In this document: piece by piece, positions 4,386 through 16,710 of the stretch
How the letters are laid out: every line of letters begins with the position of its first letter
Position numbering within the stretch: position 1 is the first letter of the stretch
NCBI GenBank assembly: GCA_016191385.1
Contig: JACPOT010000012.1
Span: 1-44,118 of the forward strand
Reading direction: 5' to 3'
From: Chloroflexota bacterium
GTDB lineage: Bacteria; Chloroflexota; Limnocylindria; P2-11E
DNA: 44,118 nt
Position numbers and translations under genes: made by a program
The notes under the pieces: generated by a model
The model's input: the letters and a program-made list of their open reading frames with translations, nothing else
Database searches by the model: none
What the model was told of the DNA's origin: nothing

Positions 4386-4850
4386 TCACGCCTCCGCGGT
4401 GCTGGTCTTGCGCTCCTCCAGGACCTCGAGGCTCTTCTTCACGATGGACAGGGTCTTGTCGAGATCGCCCTCCAGGCGCAGGAGCACGTCGGCCGCGTAC
4501 TGGTCCGCGCCGCGCATGGTCTCCTCGGCCCGCATGTGGGCACGCCCGGCGATGTCGTCCGCGCGCGACTCGGCCTCCCGGAGGATCGCCTGGTCCTGGA
4601 GGAGCAACGCCGCCTGCTCCTGTGCGGCGGCGATGATGCGCTCGGCCTCCTCGCGCGCGTTCGCGATCACGCGGTCGCCCTCCCCCGTGATGCGGCGCGC
4701 TTGCTTGACGTCCTCGGGGATGGCCAGACGCAGCTGGTCGATGAGATCCAGGACGGCGGCTTGATCGAGCATCACCTTGTTCGTCATCGGGACCTTGCCG
4801 GCCGCGACGATGAGGTTCTCGAGCCGGTCCACCAGGAACTGCATGTCCAT
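4386..4850 (-). CDS. Coiled-coil protein of unknown function
   Basis: A 154-residue soluble protein dominated by helices rich in Ala, Glu, Arg and Gln. From about residue 50 to 145 there is a nearly continuous heptad pattern resembling ATP synthase b-subunit or DivIVA-like helices, but no membrane segment and no N-terminal DivIVA motif. I do not recognise a defined family. The ATG at 4850 is followed by a second at 4844; neither has a clear ribosome site. It is followed without a gap by the DUF177 gene and preceded by the intercistronic repeat after rsmD, so it probably belongs to the ribosome/lipid operon. Confidence 0.7.
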
Positions 4851-4965: not shown

Positions 4966-5532
4966 TTAAGTCCGGTCACGTGGCGGATCGTAACGCAGGA
5001 ACATCACCGTCTCTTCGCCGATCTCCTTGATCCGCTCGGCGCGAGCTCCTTCCGGGAGGACCGGACGGTGCTTGCGGAGCGAGCGCGCCACGACGATGCC
5101 GTCGGGCGACAGAGAGGAGCGCAGGCCGGTGTGCCCGAGCGTCCGGGTCATCGCCGCCTCGTCGGGAAAGGGCGGGTCGCAGAAGACGATGTCGTAAGGC
5201 CCGCTCTGGTCGTCGCGGCCCAGGAACGTAAGGACGCTCGCCCTCACCACTCGCGCCCGATCCGCGTACCCCGTCGCCCGCAGATTTGTGCGGATGGCCG
5301 CGAGCGCGGGCCCGCTGCGCTCCACGAAGGTGGCTCGCGCGGCGCCGCGGGAGAGCGCCTCGATGCCGAGGGTCCCGGCGCCGGCGAAGAGGTCGAGGAC
5401 GGCGGCGCCCTCGAGGCGGGGCTCCAGGATGGCGAAAACGCTCTCGCGGATCCGTTCTGTCGCCGAGCGGGTGATCGACGCGGGCGGCGACACCAGGCGC
5501 CGTCCCTTCGCCTCGCCCGCGACGACGCGCAT
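4966..5532 (-). CDS. rsmD: 16S rRNA (guanine966-N2)-methyltransferase RsmD
   Basis: Class I SAM-dependent methyltransferase that modifies G966 of 16S rRNA in the assembling small subunit. The 188-residue product has the opening MRVVAGEAKGRRL, the SAM-binding loop DLFAGAGTLGIEAL at 47-60 and the catalytic motif DPPF at 119-122, all family hallmarks. The ATG at 5532 overlaps the recG stop by one base (TGATG). It ends with TAA, one of only three in the window. Confidence 0.94.
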   Translation of the reverse strand: MRVVAGEAKGRRLVSPPASITRSATERIRESVFAILEPRLEGAAVLDLFAGAGTLGIEALSRGAARATFVERSGPALAAIRTNLRATGYADRARVVRASVLTFLGRDDQSGPYDIVFCDPPFPDEAAMTRTLGHTGLRSSLSPDGIVVARSLRKHRPVLPEGARAERIKEIGEETVMFLRYDPPRDRT

Positions 5533-7561
5533 CAGGCCAGCCCATAGCGTCGCCAGAGCTCGTCGACCGCGCGGCGGAGCTCCGCATGCTCGGGACGCCG
5601 GAGCTCGGGATCCTCGCGGATGATGACGTCGGCCTCGCGCGAGGCATCCTCGAGGAGCCGCGGGTCGATGTCGGTGAGCGTCACGACGCGCAGCTGATCG
5701 GCGAAGCCGCTCTGCTCGCGGCCGAGGAACTGCCCGGGCCCGCGGATCTCGAGATCCTTCTGCGCGAGCTCGAAGCCGTTCAGCTGCCGTTCGCGCCCGT
5801 CGCGCACGACCTTCTCGGACATGGCCACGAGGCGATCGGAGCCTTTCGCAGGGCTCACGAGCACGCAGTAGGACCGCGTGTCCGAGCGGCCGACGCGCCC
5901 GCGCAGCTGGTGGAGCTGGGCGAGGCCGAACCGGTCGGCGCCGAGCACGACCATGATCGTCGCGTCCGGGATGTCGATGCCGACCTCGATGACCGTCGTG
6001 GCCACGAGCACGTCGATCTCGCGGTCCCGGAAGCGCGTCATGACCTCGTCCCGCTCGCGCTGCGGCATGCGGCCGTGCACGAGCCCGACACGGATCCCCG
6101 CGAGGCCGCCGCGCCGGAGCTCCTCTTCGGTCGCGACCGCGCTCGGCGTCCAGCCGCCCTCTTCTCCGAAGAGCGTGCCGCTCCGCTCGCTCTCCTCGGT
6201 GTCGGCGGGGTCGATGCGCGGACACACGACGAACGCCTGCTCCCCCAGCGCCACGTGCTCCTTCACCCACGGCCACACCTTCGCGAGGGCATCCGGCGTG
6301 CGGACCTCGGTGCGGATCTCCTGCCGGCCAACGGGAAGCTCGTTCAGGACCGAGACGTCGAGGTCGCGGTTCAGTGTCTGCCACAGCGTTTGCGGGATCG
6401 GCGTCGCGGTGGTCAAGAGGACGTGCGGGTAGTCGCCCTTGGAGCGGAGGCTCGCGCGTTGATCGACGCCGAAGCGCTGCTGCTCGTCGACCACGACCAG
6501 GGCGAGCTTCCGGAACGTGACGGTCTCCTCGATCAGGGCGTGCGTCCCCACGACCACATCCAGCGCGCCCGTCCTCAGCGCTTCGAGGATGTGTGCGCGC
6601 TTCTCGCCCGTGACGCTCGAGGTGAGGAGGTCGATATGCGGGCCGCCCTCGAAGGACCGCGACAGCGTCGCGTCTGCTGCGCGTCCGTCAATGTGAACGG
6701 CAGGTCGCGGATCCACCCCGCGAGCTCCTCATCGCTCGCCCGAAGCGCCGGAGCGCTGGCTTCGGCCACCCACTTCGCGCGCCGCTGGGCCGTCGCGAGC
6801 TGGAGCGTCAGCAGCTCGTCGAATGCCAGGCGGCGCCGCGCGTGTGACAGCGCGATCGGGTCGGCGGGGAAGTGGACCTGCTGAAGGGCCAGGGCGATCT
6901 CCGGGAGGTCGTTGCGGCTCCGCATCGAAGCCGGCAGCGGGTCCGGGATGTGCGTCACGAGCGGCGAGGCGACCAGCGTGCCGCCGCGGTCGCGCGCGCC
7001 CTCCACCGCGGTGTGCAGCCACCGCCGCAGCTGGCCGTCCTTGATCCCCTCGGTCAGGCGATATACGGGGACGATCCGCCCGGTGTGGACTGCCTCGCGA
7101 TCGGCGGGCTCGAGGCGCGGCTGCGAGAACTGGAGACCGCGGCCGAACCACTTCACATCGCCGGAGATCCGCACCAGCTGACCTTCGGGAAAGCTCTGCT
7201 TCACGAAGGACCGTCCGAACCACGTGGCCTTGACCGTCGACGGAGTGCCATCCTCCTCGAGAAGCTCCGCCTCGGTGAGCGTCTGACCCCGCGCGGTGCG
7301 CCGCTGCGTGATGCGACCGAGGCGCGCGAGCGCCGTCTGTTTCTCGTCGGCCCGCAGCATGCGCAGACGCTTGATCTCGGAAAGGTCCTCGTAGCGATGA
7401 GGCAGGTGCCACAGCAGGTCCGCGACGGTGCGGATGCGCGATCGCTCCAGCAGCTTCGCCGAGTCGGGTCCGACGCCGCGCAGCGTCCCGACCAGCGCGG
7501 CGAGGATCCCGCCCTGGCTACTCGAGCTGGACGATGAAGGGGTAGTGCGGCTGGCCGCCAC
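5532..7561 (-). pseudogene. recG: ATP-dependent DNA helicase RecG, internally deleted and frameshifted
   Basis: RecG remodels stalled forks and Holliday junctions. The N-terminal wedge domain is intact from a GTG at 7561 (preceded by GGAGGT at ideal spacing, overlapping fakA by 44 bases) to LPFTLTDAQQ near 6680. The helicase core then resumes in another frame at ADATLSRSFEGG and continues to the end through DEQQRFG, TTATPIPQTL and QLHQLRGRVGRS. Compared with normal RecG, some 60-65 residues are absent between the two halves, including the Walker A motif GDVGSGKT and motif Ia. Such a protein could not bind ATP even if the frame were restored. Either a genuine pseudogene or an assembly/sequencing deletion of roughly 190 bases; short CAGCA repeats at the joint would fit a slip. 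Confidence 0.85.
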
Positions 7562-9020
7562 GGCGGACCTCCACCTCCGCGTCCGCGAGGGTCACGGCGA
7601 GGAGCTCAGCTGCGCGCGTGGACTCCGCGTCGTCGACACCCGCTCCGCTATAGACCGTGACGATGCTCGCGTCCGGGACCTTGCGCGCCGCCGCCGCGAG
7701 GACCTCGAGCGCATCGGTGCCGCGCGCGACGAGTTTGCCGTCGAGCAGGGCGATGAGGTCCCCCGCCGCGACGGCGACGCCGTCCAGCGCGGTGGCCCGC
7801 GTCGCGGTGGTGATCTCGATGCCATGCGCGTCGCCGGCGGCCTCGCGCATGCGAGCCACGTTGTCGTCAGCCGCGCGCATCGGGTCGAACGCGGCGACAG
7901 CCGCCATCCCGGCGGCCACATTCGTCGTGGCGATGATCTCGACCGCTGTTCCCTCCGCCAGCTTCGCGGCTTCGCGAGCGGCCAGGACCACGTTCTTGTC
8001 GTTCGGCAGCATCACCACGGTCCGCGCATTGGCTTGCGCGATCGACGCTACGAGCTCCCCGACCGAGGGGTTCATCGTGGCGCCGCCCGAGAGCGGACGC
8101 ACATAGAAGGAGCGGGCGATCTCCGCGAATCCCTCGCCCGGGACGACCGCGACGACGGCGACCGCGCGCGGCGGCGACCGAAGGACGATCCCCGTGGCGC
8201 GCTCGTGCTCCGCGACCATCGCGTCGAAGTCCTCGACGACGAGGTCCTCGACCGTTCCGCTGGCCTCGCCCACGGCCACGATGGCCTCCGGCCGAGCCGC
8301 GTGCGCATGCACCTTGACGAGCGTGTCGTCACCGACGACGAGCACGCTGTCGGCGCCGAGGCCGATCATCTCGCGCCGCATGACCTCCGCGGTGCGGCTC
8401 GGCGACTGCACGAGGTATTGCACGCAGTGTCCGCCGGTCCATGACGCGACCTCCTGCGTCCCTGGCTCGACGTGCTGAGCGCCCGGCCGTCGCAGGACGG
8501 GCTGCGGGATCTCCGCGCGGCCATCGATGGCACCGAGCGCGCCCGCGAGGAGGAGCCAGACGCCGTACGCGCCGGCATCGACGACCCCGGCCGCGCGATT
8601 CAACGGGTTGTCCTCCATGGTCCGCTGCAGCGCCGTGGCGCCCACGGTGACGGCGGTCTCGAGGACGTGCGCGATGTCGTCCTCCGCCGGGACACCCTCT
8701 TCTACCGCAGCGCAGAGCGAGAGCATCGTCCCGCCCGCCGGGCGCTCGACGGCGGCGAAGGCGTTCTCGCGCGCCTTGAGGAAGGCGCGACGCACGTCCG
8801 CGGGGCCGGCGGTGTCCTTCCCGGCGAATGCGTCGCTGAACCCGCGAAAGATCTGCGAGAGGATCACGCCGCTGTTGCCACGCGCGCCCATGAGCGCACC
8901 GCGCGCGAGCGCGGCGCTCACATCGGAGACGCTGGTGCCGCTCTCTCGCGCGCGCGCGAGCGCGGCACTGATGGTCTGATGCATGTTGCGCCCGGTGTCG
9001 CCATCTGGCAGCGGATACAC
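7518..9020 (-). CDS. fakA: Fatty acid kinase / DAK2-domain protein (FakA, YloV family)
   Basis: Predicted to phosphorylate FakB-bound fatty acids to acyl-phosphate, using an N-terminal DAK2 kinase-like domain (DGDTG at residues 6-10 of the annotated product, MGARGNSGVILSQ soon after) and a C-terminal DAK1-like domain. The annotated GTG at 9020 lies inside the conserved N-terminus: the reading frame continues upstream to 9104 with the family-typical WDGRGLLHAVEAA and DALNVYPLPDGDTG, but no ATG, GTG or TTG occurs in frame before the TAG at 9128. A GTG at 9105 is one base out of frame; losing one G from the GGTGGGAC run would put it in frame. So either a base error, a rare start codon or a frameshift affects this start. 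It heads the operon that includes plsX. Confidence 0.85.
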   Translation of the reverse strand: MYPLPDGDTGRNMHQTISAALARARESGTSVSDVSAALARGALMGARGNSGVILSQIFRGFSDAFAGKDTAGPADVRRAFLKARENAFAAVERPAGGTMLSLCAAVEEGVPAEDDIAHVLETAVTVGATALQRTMEDNPLNRAAGVVDAGAYGVWLLLAGALGAIDGRAEIPQPVLRRPGAQHVEPGTQEVASWTGGHCVQYLVQSPSRTAEVMRREMIGLGADSVLVVGDDTLVKVHAHAARPEAIVAVGEASGTVEDLVVEDFDAMVAEHERATGIVLRSPPRAVAVVAVVPGEGFAEIARSFYVRPLSGGATMNPSVGELVASIAQANARTVVMLPNDKNVVLAAREAAKLAEGTAVEIIATTNVAAGMAAVAAFDPMRAADDNVARMREAAGDAHGIEITTATRATALDGVAVAAGDLIALLDGKLVARGTDALEVLAAAARKVPDASIVTVYSGAGVDDAESTRAAELLAVTLADAEVEVRRGGQPHYPFIVQLE

Positions 9021-9163
9021 GTTGAGGGCGTCGACCTCGGCGGCCTCACGCTTCAGTCGAGCGGCCGCCGCCTCGACAGCGTGAAGCAGCCCGCGACCGT
9101 CCCACCGTGATACGATCGTCGGACCCTAGCACGGCGGAACCCCCACAAAGGAGCCCACCACTC

Positions 9164-11419: not shown

Positions 11420-12063
11420 TCGGACGCTGAAGCGGTCACCTCCTCCGTCTCGTCCGGCTCGACGACGTGCAGGTCCTCACGCGAGCGCAGGCGATCGATG
11501 TACAGCATGCCGCTCAGGTGGTCCGTCTCATGGAGGAGGCACTGGGCGCCGACGTCGTCCCCTTCGATCACGAACTTCTTCCCGTTGAGGTCCGTCGCCG
11601 AGATGCGCACCCCCAGGGGACGCTCGAGCATCCCGTAGAACCCGCGCACCGAGAGGCAGCCCTCGCTGGTCTCTTCCACCTCCTCCGAGACCTCAGCCAC
11701 CTTCGGGTCGATGCACACGAACCCGGTCTCGTCGACATCCATGATCGCGATCCGCAGAGGCACGCCGATCTGCGGCGCCGCGATCCCGATGCCGCGGGCC
11801 GCGACCATCGACGCGAACATACGCGCGACGAGCTCCTCGAGCTCCTTCTTCGAGAGCGCCGGCTTCTTCGCCGGCGCATGGAGGACCGGGTCACCCACCT
11901 GGCGGATCTCGAGGGCGTGGCGGCGCACGAACTCATCGCTCGACCACTTGGTGCGCCGGGAGGCGTCGATCCTCCAGGGCTTCGCGTTCCTCAGGACCCG
12001 GATCCGCGGCTCCGGTGGTCGCTCGTCCTCGGTCTCGGTCTCGCGCGAGAGGTCCGTCTCCAT
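11416..12063 (-). CDS. def: Peptide deformylase
   Basis: Metalloenzyme that removes the formyl group from nascent proteins. Three family motifs are present in the 215-residue product: GIGIAAPQIG (91-100, usually GVGLAAPQ), EGCLS (134-138, metal Cys136) and HETDH (178-182, two metal His and the catalytic Glu). The first 45 residues before LEIRQVGDPVLH are an extra charged extension not seen in typical enzymes; a later start is possible but no better ribosome site is visible. It lies ten bases after the kinase gene. Confidence 0.93.
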   Translation of the reverse strand: METDLSRETETEDERPPEPRIRVLRNAKPWRIDASRRTKWSSDEFVRRHALEIRQVGDPVLHAPAKKPALSKKELEELVARMFASMVAARGIGIAAPQIGVPLRIAIMDVDETGFVCIDPKVAEVSEEVEETSEGCLSVRGFYGMLERPLGVRISATDLNGKKFVIEGDDVGAQCLLHETDHLSGMLYIDRLRSREDLHVVEPDETEEVTASASE

Positions 12064-13051: not shown

Positions 13052-13214
13052 GGCGCCACGCCGCCATAGGCGGGGGCTCGCTCGCTGTCACGCGACCGTG
13101 CGCCCAGCGACCCCATATCTCGGGGAGTTCGCGGCGGTTCCGTCGCCTGGCGCGAACGCTTGTGCACCGCTCGTGCAGGTCCCTCTGACCAGTACGACCA
13201 CAAAGGAGGACCAC

Positions 13215-14080: not shown

Positions 14081-16078
14081 TCATCCGAGCAGCGTCACTG
14101 GATCCACATCGATGCTCCACTGCGGGCCGACGGGAACACGGTCCAACAACGCGGCGGGACGCGGGCCGCGGAGGACGGTCTGAGCGCGATGGCTCCCGGC
14201 CTTCTTCGCGGCGAAAGCGGGTGCGGGTCCCAGCACGTCCGCGTCCTGGCCAGCCGCCGCGCGCAGCGCGCGCGACAGCTCCGCGGCGCGCCGCTCGACC
14301 GTCGACTCCTGTTTCGCCGACGTTTGCAGGAGGACGAGCTTCCCGAACGGAGGGAGACCGAACTGCCTGCGCGTCGCGAGCTCCGCCTCCGCGAACGCCG
14401 CATAGTCATGCGCGGCCGCGGCACGGATGGCGTAGTGCTCGGGCAGGTACGTCTGCAGGATCCCGCGGCCGCCACCCGCACCCCGTCCGGATCGCCCGAG
14501 CACCTGAGTGAGCAGCTCGAAGGTGCGCTCCGCGGCCGTGTGGTCGGGCAGGTTGAGGACCGTGTCGGCATTGATGACGCCGACGAGCGTCACTCCGGGG
14601 AGATCGAAGCCCTTCGCGACCATCTGTGTGCCGACGATCACCTGCGCGCGCCCGGAGCGCATGAGCTCGAACGCGGCCGCGTGCGCGCCCTTCTTCCGCA
14701 CCGCGTCGCGGTCGAGCCGCAGCACCCGCGCCTTCGGGACCGCGCTCCGCACGTCATCCTCGACGCGCTGCGTCCCGACGCCGAGCTGCCGGATGCGGAC
14801 GCTGCCGCACTTCGGGCAGTGATCCGCGACGCGCGCCTCGGAGCGCCCGCAGCGATGGCAGACCAGACGGCCGTCGGCGTGGAAGGCGTAGGGGATCTCG
14901 CACGCCGGGCACGGCAGCACGTGCCCGCAGTCGCGGCACAACACGACCGTCGCGTAGCCGCGGCGGTTGAGATAGAGGATGGCCTGCTCCCCCTTCTCGA
15001 TGGTCCGCTCGAGCGCGACGCGCAGGGCCCGCGAGAGCGTCGTGCGGTTACCGGCCTTCAGCTCGAGACGCAGGTCGACGATCGTCGTGGGCGGCAGCGG
15101 GAGGTCGCCGGGCCGCTCGGGGAGGTCCAGAAGACGGATCGCTCCCTCACGCGCCGCGTGATAGGTCGTGACTCGCGGCGTCGCGCTGCCGAGGACGACG
15201 GTCGCGCCGGTGATGCGGCCGAGCTCGATGGCCGCGTCGACGGCGTGATAACGCGGGTCGCTCTCCTGCTTGTACGCCGGCTCCTGCTCCTCGTCGACCA
15301 CGATCAGTCCCGGCCTCGCGAGCGGAGCGAAGAGCGCGGAGCGGGACCCGACGACGACGTCCGCCGTCCCCGCGAGCACGCGCCGCCACTCGTCGGCGCG
15401 CTCCCCCTCCGAGAGCGCGCTGTGGAGAAGCGCGACGCGCTCCCCGAAACGCGCGACGAACCGCGCGACGACCTGGGGGGTGAGGCCGATCTCGGGCACG
15501 AGGACGATGGCGCCGCGGCCGCGCTCGAGGGAAAGCGCGACCGCGCGCATGTAGACCTCGGTCTTGCCGCTACCCGTGATGCCGTGGAGAAGGAAGACGG
15601 ATCCGACCCCCGCGAGCGACGCGCCGATGGCCGCGAGCGCCTCGCCCTGGCCCGCGGTGGCGTCCAGGTCGCGGACCGGGTCGTCGTCGACGACCGTGAG
15701 CTCGCCGGGGATCCGCCGCGCGACGAGCCGGGCCTTCGATCCCGTCCGCGTCCGGCGAGCCAGCCCGGGCGGCACCATCGCGCGCACGGCGTCGGCGAGG
15801 GCGCAGCGGTAGTGGCCCGCGATCCAGCGGGCCAGCTCGATCTGGTACGGGCGCAGGACCGGATCGGCCTCGCCCACGGCGGCGACGTTGCGCAGCTGGC
15901 CGGCCGGCTCTTCGACATCGAGCGCGATGGCCACACCGGCAACGGTCCGCGCCGCGAGCGGAATGCGTACCAGCTGTCCGACCGCCACGTCCATGCCGTC
16001 CGGGATCCCGTAGGTGAACGTGCGCGCGGGACCGCCCGCGCCGCTGAAGACCGCGACCTCCGCCGTTCGCAGGGTCAC
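14081..16078 (-). CDS. priA: Primosomal protein N' (replication restart helicase PriA)
   Basis: Recognises abandoned forks and loads the replicative helicase. The 665-residue protein has the N-terminal 3'-DNA-binding domain, Walker A GITGSGKT (about 166-173), a DEEQ box in place of the usual DEEH, a zinc-binding insertion with four CxxC pairs (CRDC, CPAC, CHRC, CPKC), and the motif GTQMVAKGFD. The GTG at 16078 overlaps the gmk stop by GTGA, so I prefer it to a TTG two codons earlier. It is the last gene of lspA-rluD-gmk-priA. With recG broken in the same window, fork restart may depend more heavily on PriA. Confidence 0.94.
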   Translation of the reverse strand: MTLRTAEVAVFSGAGGPARTFTYGIPDGMDVAVGQLVRIPLAARTVAGVAIALDVEEPAGQLRNVAAVGEADPVLRPYQIELARWIAGHYRCALADAVRAMVPPGLARRTRTGSKARLVARRIPGELTVVDDDPVRDLDATAGQGEALAAIGASLAGVGSVFLLHGITGSGKTEVYMRAVALSLERGRGAIVLVPEIGLTPQVVARFVARFGERVALLHSALSEGERADEWRRVLAGTADVVVGSRSALFAPLARPGLIVVDEEQEPAYKQESDPRYHAVDAAIELGRITGATVVLGSATPRVTTYHAAREGAIRLLDLPERPGDLPLPPTTIVDLRLELKAGNRTTLSRALRVALERTIEKGEQAILYLNRRGYATVVLCRDCGHVLPCPACEIPYAFHADGRLVCHRCGRSEARVADHCPKCGSVRIRQLGVGTQRVEDDVRSAVPKARVLRLDRDAVRKKGAHAAAFELMRSGRAQVIVGTQMVAKGFDLPGVTLVGVINADTVLNLPDHTAAERTFELLTQVLGRSGRGAGGGRGILQTYLPEHYAIRAAAAHDYAAFAEAELATRRQFGLPPFGKLVLLQTSAKQESTVERRAAELSRALRAAAGQDADVLGPAPAFAAKKAGSHRAQTVLRGPRPAALLDRVPVGPQWSIDVDPVTLLG

Positions 16079-16710
16079 AGCCAATAGGTTCGGGGGCGCT
16101 CGGCCTCCTTGGTGATGATCGCGGCGATCTCGCGGGCGGTGTCGTCGAGCTTGCCGTCCCGGTTGATCACGACATGGTCGTACTCAGGCACGGCGGCCAT
16201 CTCGATCTCGGCGTTGCGGAGGCGCAGCTCCAGTGACTCGGCCGACTCCGTCCCGCGCGAGGTGAGCCAGCGGCGAAGGAGCCCCAGCGACTCGGGCTGG
16301 ATGAACACGGTGACCGCCTCGGGAAGCACGGCCTTGAGCTTGCGCATCCCCTGCGGATCCGGCTTCACGATGACGATGCGGTGCTGGCGCAGCGTGTCCG
16401 CCAGAGCGTCGCGGCGGACGCCCTTGAACTCATCGTGCACCACCGACCACTCGAGGAAGTTGCCGGCCTCGATCTCGTCGCGGAACTTCTGCGGCTCGTA
16501 GAAGAAGTAATGCTCGCCGTGGACCTCGCCCTTGCGCGGCGGCCGGCTGGTCGCGGTCACGTAGACCACGGCGTCGTCGAGGCTGCGGACGAGACGCTCG
16601 ATGACGCTGTCCTTACCACCTCCTGACGGCGCGGAGACGATCACGAGGAGGCCGCGGACCGTCTCGCGGTCGCGGGGCGGGTCGTCCCTCTTCGTGACGT
16701 CGGCGGTCAC
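16075..16710 (-). CDS. gmk: Guanylate kinase
   Basis: Phosphorylates GMP/dGMP to GDP/dGDP using ATP. The 211-residue product carries the P-loop SAPSGGGKDSV at 26-36 and the GMP-binding SRPPRKGEVHGEHYFF segment. The GTG at 16710 overlaps the rluD stop (GTGA) and lies four bases after GGAGG, fixing the start. The P-loop has Ala-Pro instead of Gly-Pro at its beginning, a mild variant. The last base triplet TGA overlaps the priA start. Confidence 0.94.
   Translation of the reverse strand: MTADVTKRDDPPRDRETVRGLLVIVSAPSGGGKDSVIERLVRSLDDAVVYVTATSRPPRKGEVHGEHYFFYEPQKFRDEIEAGNFLEWSVVHDEFKGVRRDALADTLRQHRIVIVKPDPQGMRKLKAVLPEAVTVFIQPESLGLLRRWLTSRGTESAESLELRLRNAEIEMAAVPEYDHVVINRDGKLDDTAREIAAIITKEAERPRTYWL

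Follow-up and report, generated by a model that had tools for sequence, protein, structure and literature searches.

A recG gene without its Walker A region in a draft Chloroflexota genome: a probable local misassembly

Has this bacterium lost RecG, or has its draft genome lost a piece of an intact recG gene? The window, by which we mean the whole stretch of 44,118 nucleotides that was analysed, carries recG in two parts that do not join. A first-pass annotation had described the gene at 6660–6700 as out of frame and lacking its Walker A region, and had attributed this to a recent event or to an assembly or sequencing error. The features that bear on the question are the following.

4966..5535, minus strand: rsmD-like 16S rRNA methyltransferase gene, the next gene, intact (Pfam Cons_hypoth95, 1.2e-41)
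5532..6674, minus strand: recG 3′ portion, comprising the rest of helicase domain 1, Helicase_C and RecG_dom3_C (Pfam)
6575..6674, minus strand: out-of-frame tail of the N-terminal open reading frame past the junction, TRRCRGPSRAARIS... (list of open reading frames, three-frame translation)
6674/6675, minus strand: recG junction (alignment with G001–G005)
6675..7561, minus strand: recG 5′ portion with the RecG wedge domain, ending ...LPFTLTDAQQ (Pfam RecG_wedge PF17191, 1.9e-21; 295 codons open)
7518..9125, minus strand: FakA/DAK2-like gene upstream of recG, intact (Pfam FakA-like_C, 3.8e-55)
14081..16183, minus strand: priA, intact (PriA_3primeBD, DEAD, PriA_C)

The break at 6674/6675 lies inside the interval first described, and the two halves are indeed in different frames. 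The reading frame is −3 before the junction and −2 after it, so that there is no one continuous frame; the tail at 6575..6674 is meaningless read-through until a stop codon is met, and the helicase half resumes in another frame at ADATLSRSFEGG and ends at 5532. Comparison with three to five intact or near-intact recG genes of congeners (G001–G005) showed that both flanks of the break are colinear with them at 68–80% DNA identity (blastn, tblastn), and that the encoded 5′ and 3′ portions have 57–72% and 70–73% amino acid identity, respectively, to congener RecG. The net loss at the junction is 178 nt by tblastn against G003 and 181 nt by MAFFT, an ambiguity that arises because of a one-codon length difference just past the junction. 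This amounts to 59–60 codons plus 1 nt (60–65 residues had been estimated at first), and the lost segment covers motif I/Walker A (GDVGSGKT) and motif Ia (TPTELLAxQH). The profile searches located the same gap: NCBIfam RecG matches end at model position 371 and restart at 442 of 795, and the Pfam DEAD alignment begins only at profile position 77 of 167. Judged by these alignments, the gap is far beyond chance. Of the features expected in a functional RecG, the wedge domain, Helicase_C (PF00271, 3.4e-25) and RecG domain 3 (PF19833, 6.7e-11) are present, and the Walker A/motif I sequence GDVGSGKT is absent. As written, the predicted gene cannot encode a working RecG.

One could envision that the gene is split but functional, as two cooperating polypeptides or through a frameshift or bypass product, given that each half forms an open reading frame and has candidate GTG start codons. 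However, neither Walker A nor motif Ia is present in either half or in the remaining assembly, and the absent residues cannot be restored by any frameshift or bypass, as the first-pass annotation had recognised. Nor is any relative split at this position. With the ATP-binding motif missing entirely, a functional split recG is practically excluded.

A second recG was also searched for, as had been proposed, and none was found in this draft assembly; a search of the same assembly for a displaced copy of the missing segment was likewise negative. Apart from recG itself, RecG models matched one helicase of the window, PriA, and that match is weak (5.2e-9); it was also the sole further match in the assembly. 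RecG is present in 27 of the 28 family genomes, and an interruption at Walker A was seen only in the present one: recG is intact across Walker A in G001, G002 and G003, as in most further family genomes, and the same junction was looked for in congeners and found in none. The FakA/DAK2-like gene is the usual neighbour of recG in congeners, and the gene order is the same in G001, G003 and G004.

One possible hypothesis is that recG has been inactivated in the population that was sampled, by a deletion that is both real and recent. A deletion at micro-homology would have taken out motif I together with motif Ia and changed the reading frame; the product would then be a truncated wedge protein, and there would be no RecG ATPase. 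The contiguous sequence, intact on both sides, is what one would expect of a recent event: the contig contains no N, it is colinear with congeners on either side of the break, and neither half has stop codons (codon-position GC 72/52/88 and 75/45/93). Since the halves are undecayed, any real event would have to be recent, and to that extent the recency first suggested fits. The failure to find a second recG or a displaced segment is also in keeping with a real loss, and natural loss of recG is on record: a survey of 117 genomes found no recG in mollicutes, Chlamydiaceae or Desulfovibrio vulgaris (PMC1193525). Natural absence of recG is thus known but uncommon. Against this hypothesis, three other congeners and most further family genomes keep recG uninterrupted across Walker A. 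In addition, ruvB was not found in the draft either, and both of the RecA-positive genomes without RuvAB in that survey (n=2) kept RecG (PMC1193525). We regard a real deletion as possible but doubtful, above all for the reasons that emerge from the rest of the draft, described below.

The suggestion that a strain without RecG would rely on PriA and on RuvAB- or RadA-type routes is unsupported. The priA gene is present at 14081–16183, but neither ruvB nor radA/sms, nor mfd, gave a match above the cut-off in the draft, which at 70% completeness may only reflect missing contigs; for that reason, the absence of ruvB and radA is uninformative, as is the claim that their products compensate.

A CAGCA-like repeat at both edges had been put forward as the mediator of the deletion. 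The repeat is only partly supported: in relatives the left edge reads CAGCG and the right edge CAGCAC. Moreover, the two CAG codons at the edges of the gap share one phase, and therefore a clean slip from repeat to repeat would keep the frame; one further base must also have gone. A clean CAGCA-to-CAGCA slip predicts an in-frame deletion, which is not seen, and is insufficient as a mechanism.

The base rate of such lesions was determined in the same draft, which is 70% complete and consists of 121 contigs. We sampled 784 kb of its 1.42 Mb, and about 166 kb of coding sequence with a homologue in sampled congener DNA was compared with congener proteins for frame changes and clean gaps. Besides that in recG, two clean internal deletions of similar size were observed. 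The first is an in-frame deletion of about 189 nt at 11853/11860 in a polyprenyl (heptaprenyl-type) diphosphate synthase gene (L141, G000:C10, 11683–12459, minus strand), which removes ...QITDDVLD..., the second Asp-rich motif (DDVLD). The second is an in-frame deletion of 228 nt at 4645/4646 in the gene for the deoxyribose-phosphate aldolase DeoC (L246, G000:C99, 4550–5044, minus strand), which removes the Schiff-base-lysine region VKTSTGFGPEGAT, with the catalytic lysine motif VKTSTGF, together with KAAGGIRT. All three genes are otherwise intact and well conserved. The damaged polyprenyl diphosphate synthase is the sole such synthase found in the draft. Polyprenyl synthase is required for respiratory quinones and is normally indispensable. 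A real loss of its catalytic core is hard to accept, and this is the strongest single argument for misassembly; that this enzyme and DeoC have both lost their active sites to lesions of the same type weighs against a real deletion in recG.

Other sources of damage were considered. No single-base frameshift was detected in the approximately 166 kb of compared coding sequence, which leaves no sign there of pervasive single-base indel errors. In-frame nonsense decay was rejected, as the stops fall in shadow frames rich in Arg and Ser, and G003 has them at a similar rate. With no single-base frameshifts and with stops confined to shadow frames, the lesions are therefore not ordinary pseudogene decay. 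Confusion of the assembler by k-mers shared across species at the most conserved DNA was also rejected: the identity of the deleted segments exceeds the gene mean only slightly, and 15–78% of windows of the same size are as conserved as they are.

In the same draft, the gene for an adenosylcobalamin-dependent ribonucleotide reductase (L182, 16484–19999, G000:C69, minus strand) has an intein-like insertion, in frame and about 1.2 kb long, that matches an intein N-terminal splicing region. G003 has no intein-like insertion at that site, and its own reductase open reading frame has an intein match elsewhere.

The three lesions in about 166 kb here compare with two in about 91 kb of G004 and with none found by the same procedure in about 164 kb of G003 and about 38 kb of G001; the numbers are small, and the difference between three here and none in G003 is not significant alone, as it would arise by chance about once in eight times at equal rates. 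In G004, recG has a 119-nt out-of-frame deletion near the end of the gene (L109, about 13145–13150), which removes the conserved NGFELAxRDLxxRGPGQFLG stretch and differs from the lesion in the present genome. The other G004 lesion is a 60-nt in-frame deletion in mfd (L229, 848–4378) that removes the Walker B aspartate and sits between near-identical TCGTCATCGRC repeats. A small hairpin-like element (GGGGGCAGAGCCCCCTGCGA) was also noted in frame inside G004 rlmN (L125, 18245–19411); its core occurs in 8–9 copies in 242 kb of G004 and in none in the sampled parts of G003 and of the present genome, and it may be a species-specific REP-like element.

The G004 lesions can be read in two ways. A second out-of-frame recG deletion in the genus could mean that selection on recG is relaxed there, as a real deletion would have it. 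An extension of this idea is that recG is being lost in parallel in the genus, through independent out-of-frame deletions in two of the five species, in organisms in which RuvAB is also missing or dispensed with; we think this improbable. Alternatively, G004 is also a fragmented draft and shows the same class of lesion, and its deletions may be further instances of misassembly.

Our preferred interpretation, to which we would give a probability of roughly 0.6, is that recG was broken by a local error of assembly (or of the library) in this metagenome-type draft. The organism would have a contiguous, intact recG that was joined across a stretch of about 180 nt during assembly, with no more than a few homologous bases at the junction; the join would have removed the Walker A region and shifted the frame, and the same kind of collapse would have struck at least two other genes of the draft. 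We infer that the organism's own DNA contains the missing recG segment. Misassembly is favoured because the draft, which is 70% complete in 121 contigs, shows repeated loss of catalytic cores from genes that are intact in all other respects. Of the two origins named in the first-pass annotation, the companion deletions thus favour error over a recent event.

A real loss would provide an example of a free-living organism that has no RecG and may have no RuvAB either, which would be relevant to the redundancy of branch-migration enzymes. The more useful lesson is one of method: clean deletions of about 60–230 nt, unmarked by Ns, can deprive several genes of one draft of their catalytic motifs in contigs that still look sound, and can be read in error as gene loss. 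The companion lesions thus matter to users of this draft who would claim gene loss.

Compared with the RecG helicase (NCBIfam PRK10917/TIGR00643), the gene described here has the wedge domain, the helicase motifs beginning with motif II, Helicase_C and RecG domain 3, and its neighbourhood, FakA-like–recG–rsmD, is the usual one. It differs in lacking motifs I and Ia (about 60 residues) and in having its two halves out of frame with each other. Many of the seeming pseudogenes in bacteria are products of faulty assembly and vary with the assembler and the coverage (PMC11017572). The present case resembles these in that a gene is apparently broken in one assembly and intact in relatives, with no decay near the break; that paper treats frameshifts and internal stops, whereas the lesions seen in the present assembly are clean internal deletions of 180–230 nt. 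Some lineages tolerate the natural loss of one of their branch-migration enzymes (PMC1193525, PMC4224334), as in Wolbachia, where ruvA was neutralised and recG kept (PMC4224334). Those losses, however, are lineage-wide or occur in endosymbionts and are seen in several genomes, whereas the break in recG described here is found in one draft that has companion lesions in unrelated genes.
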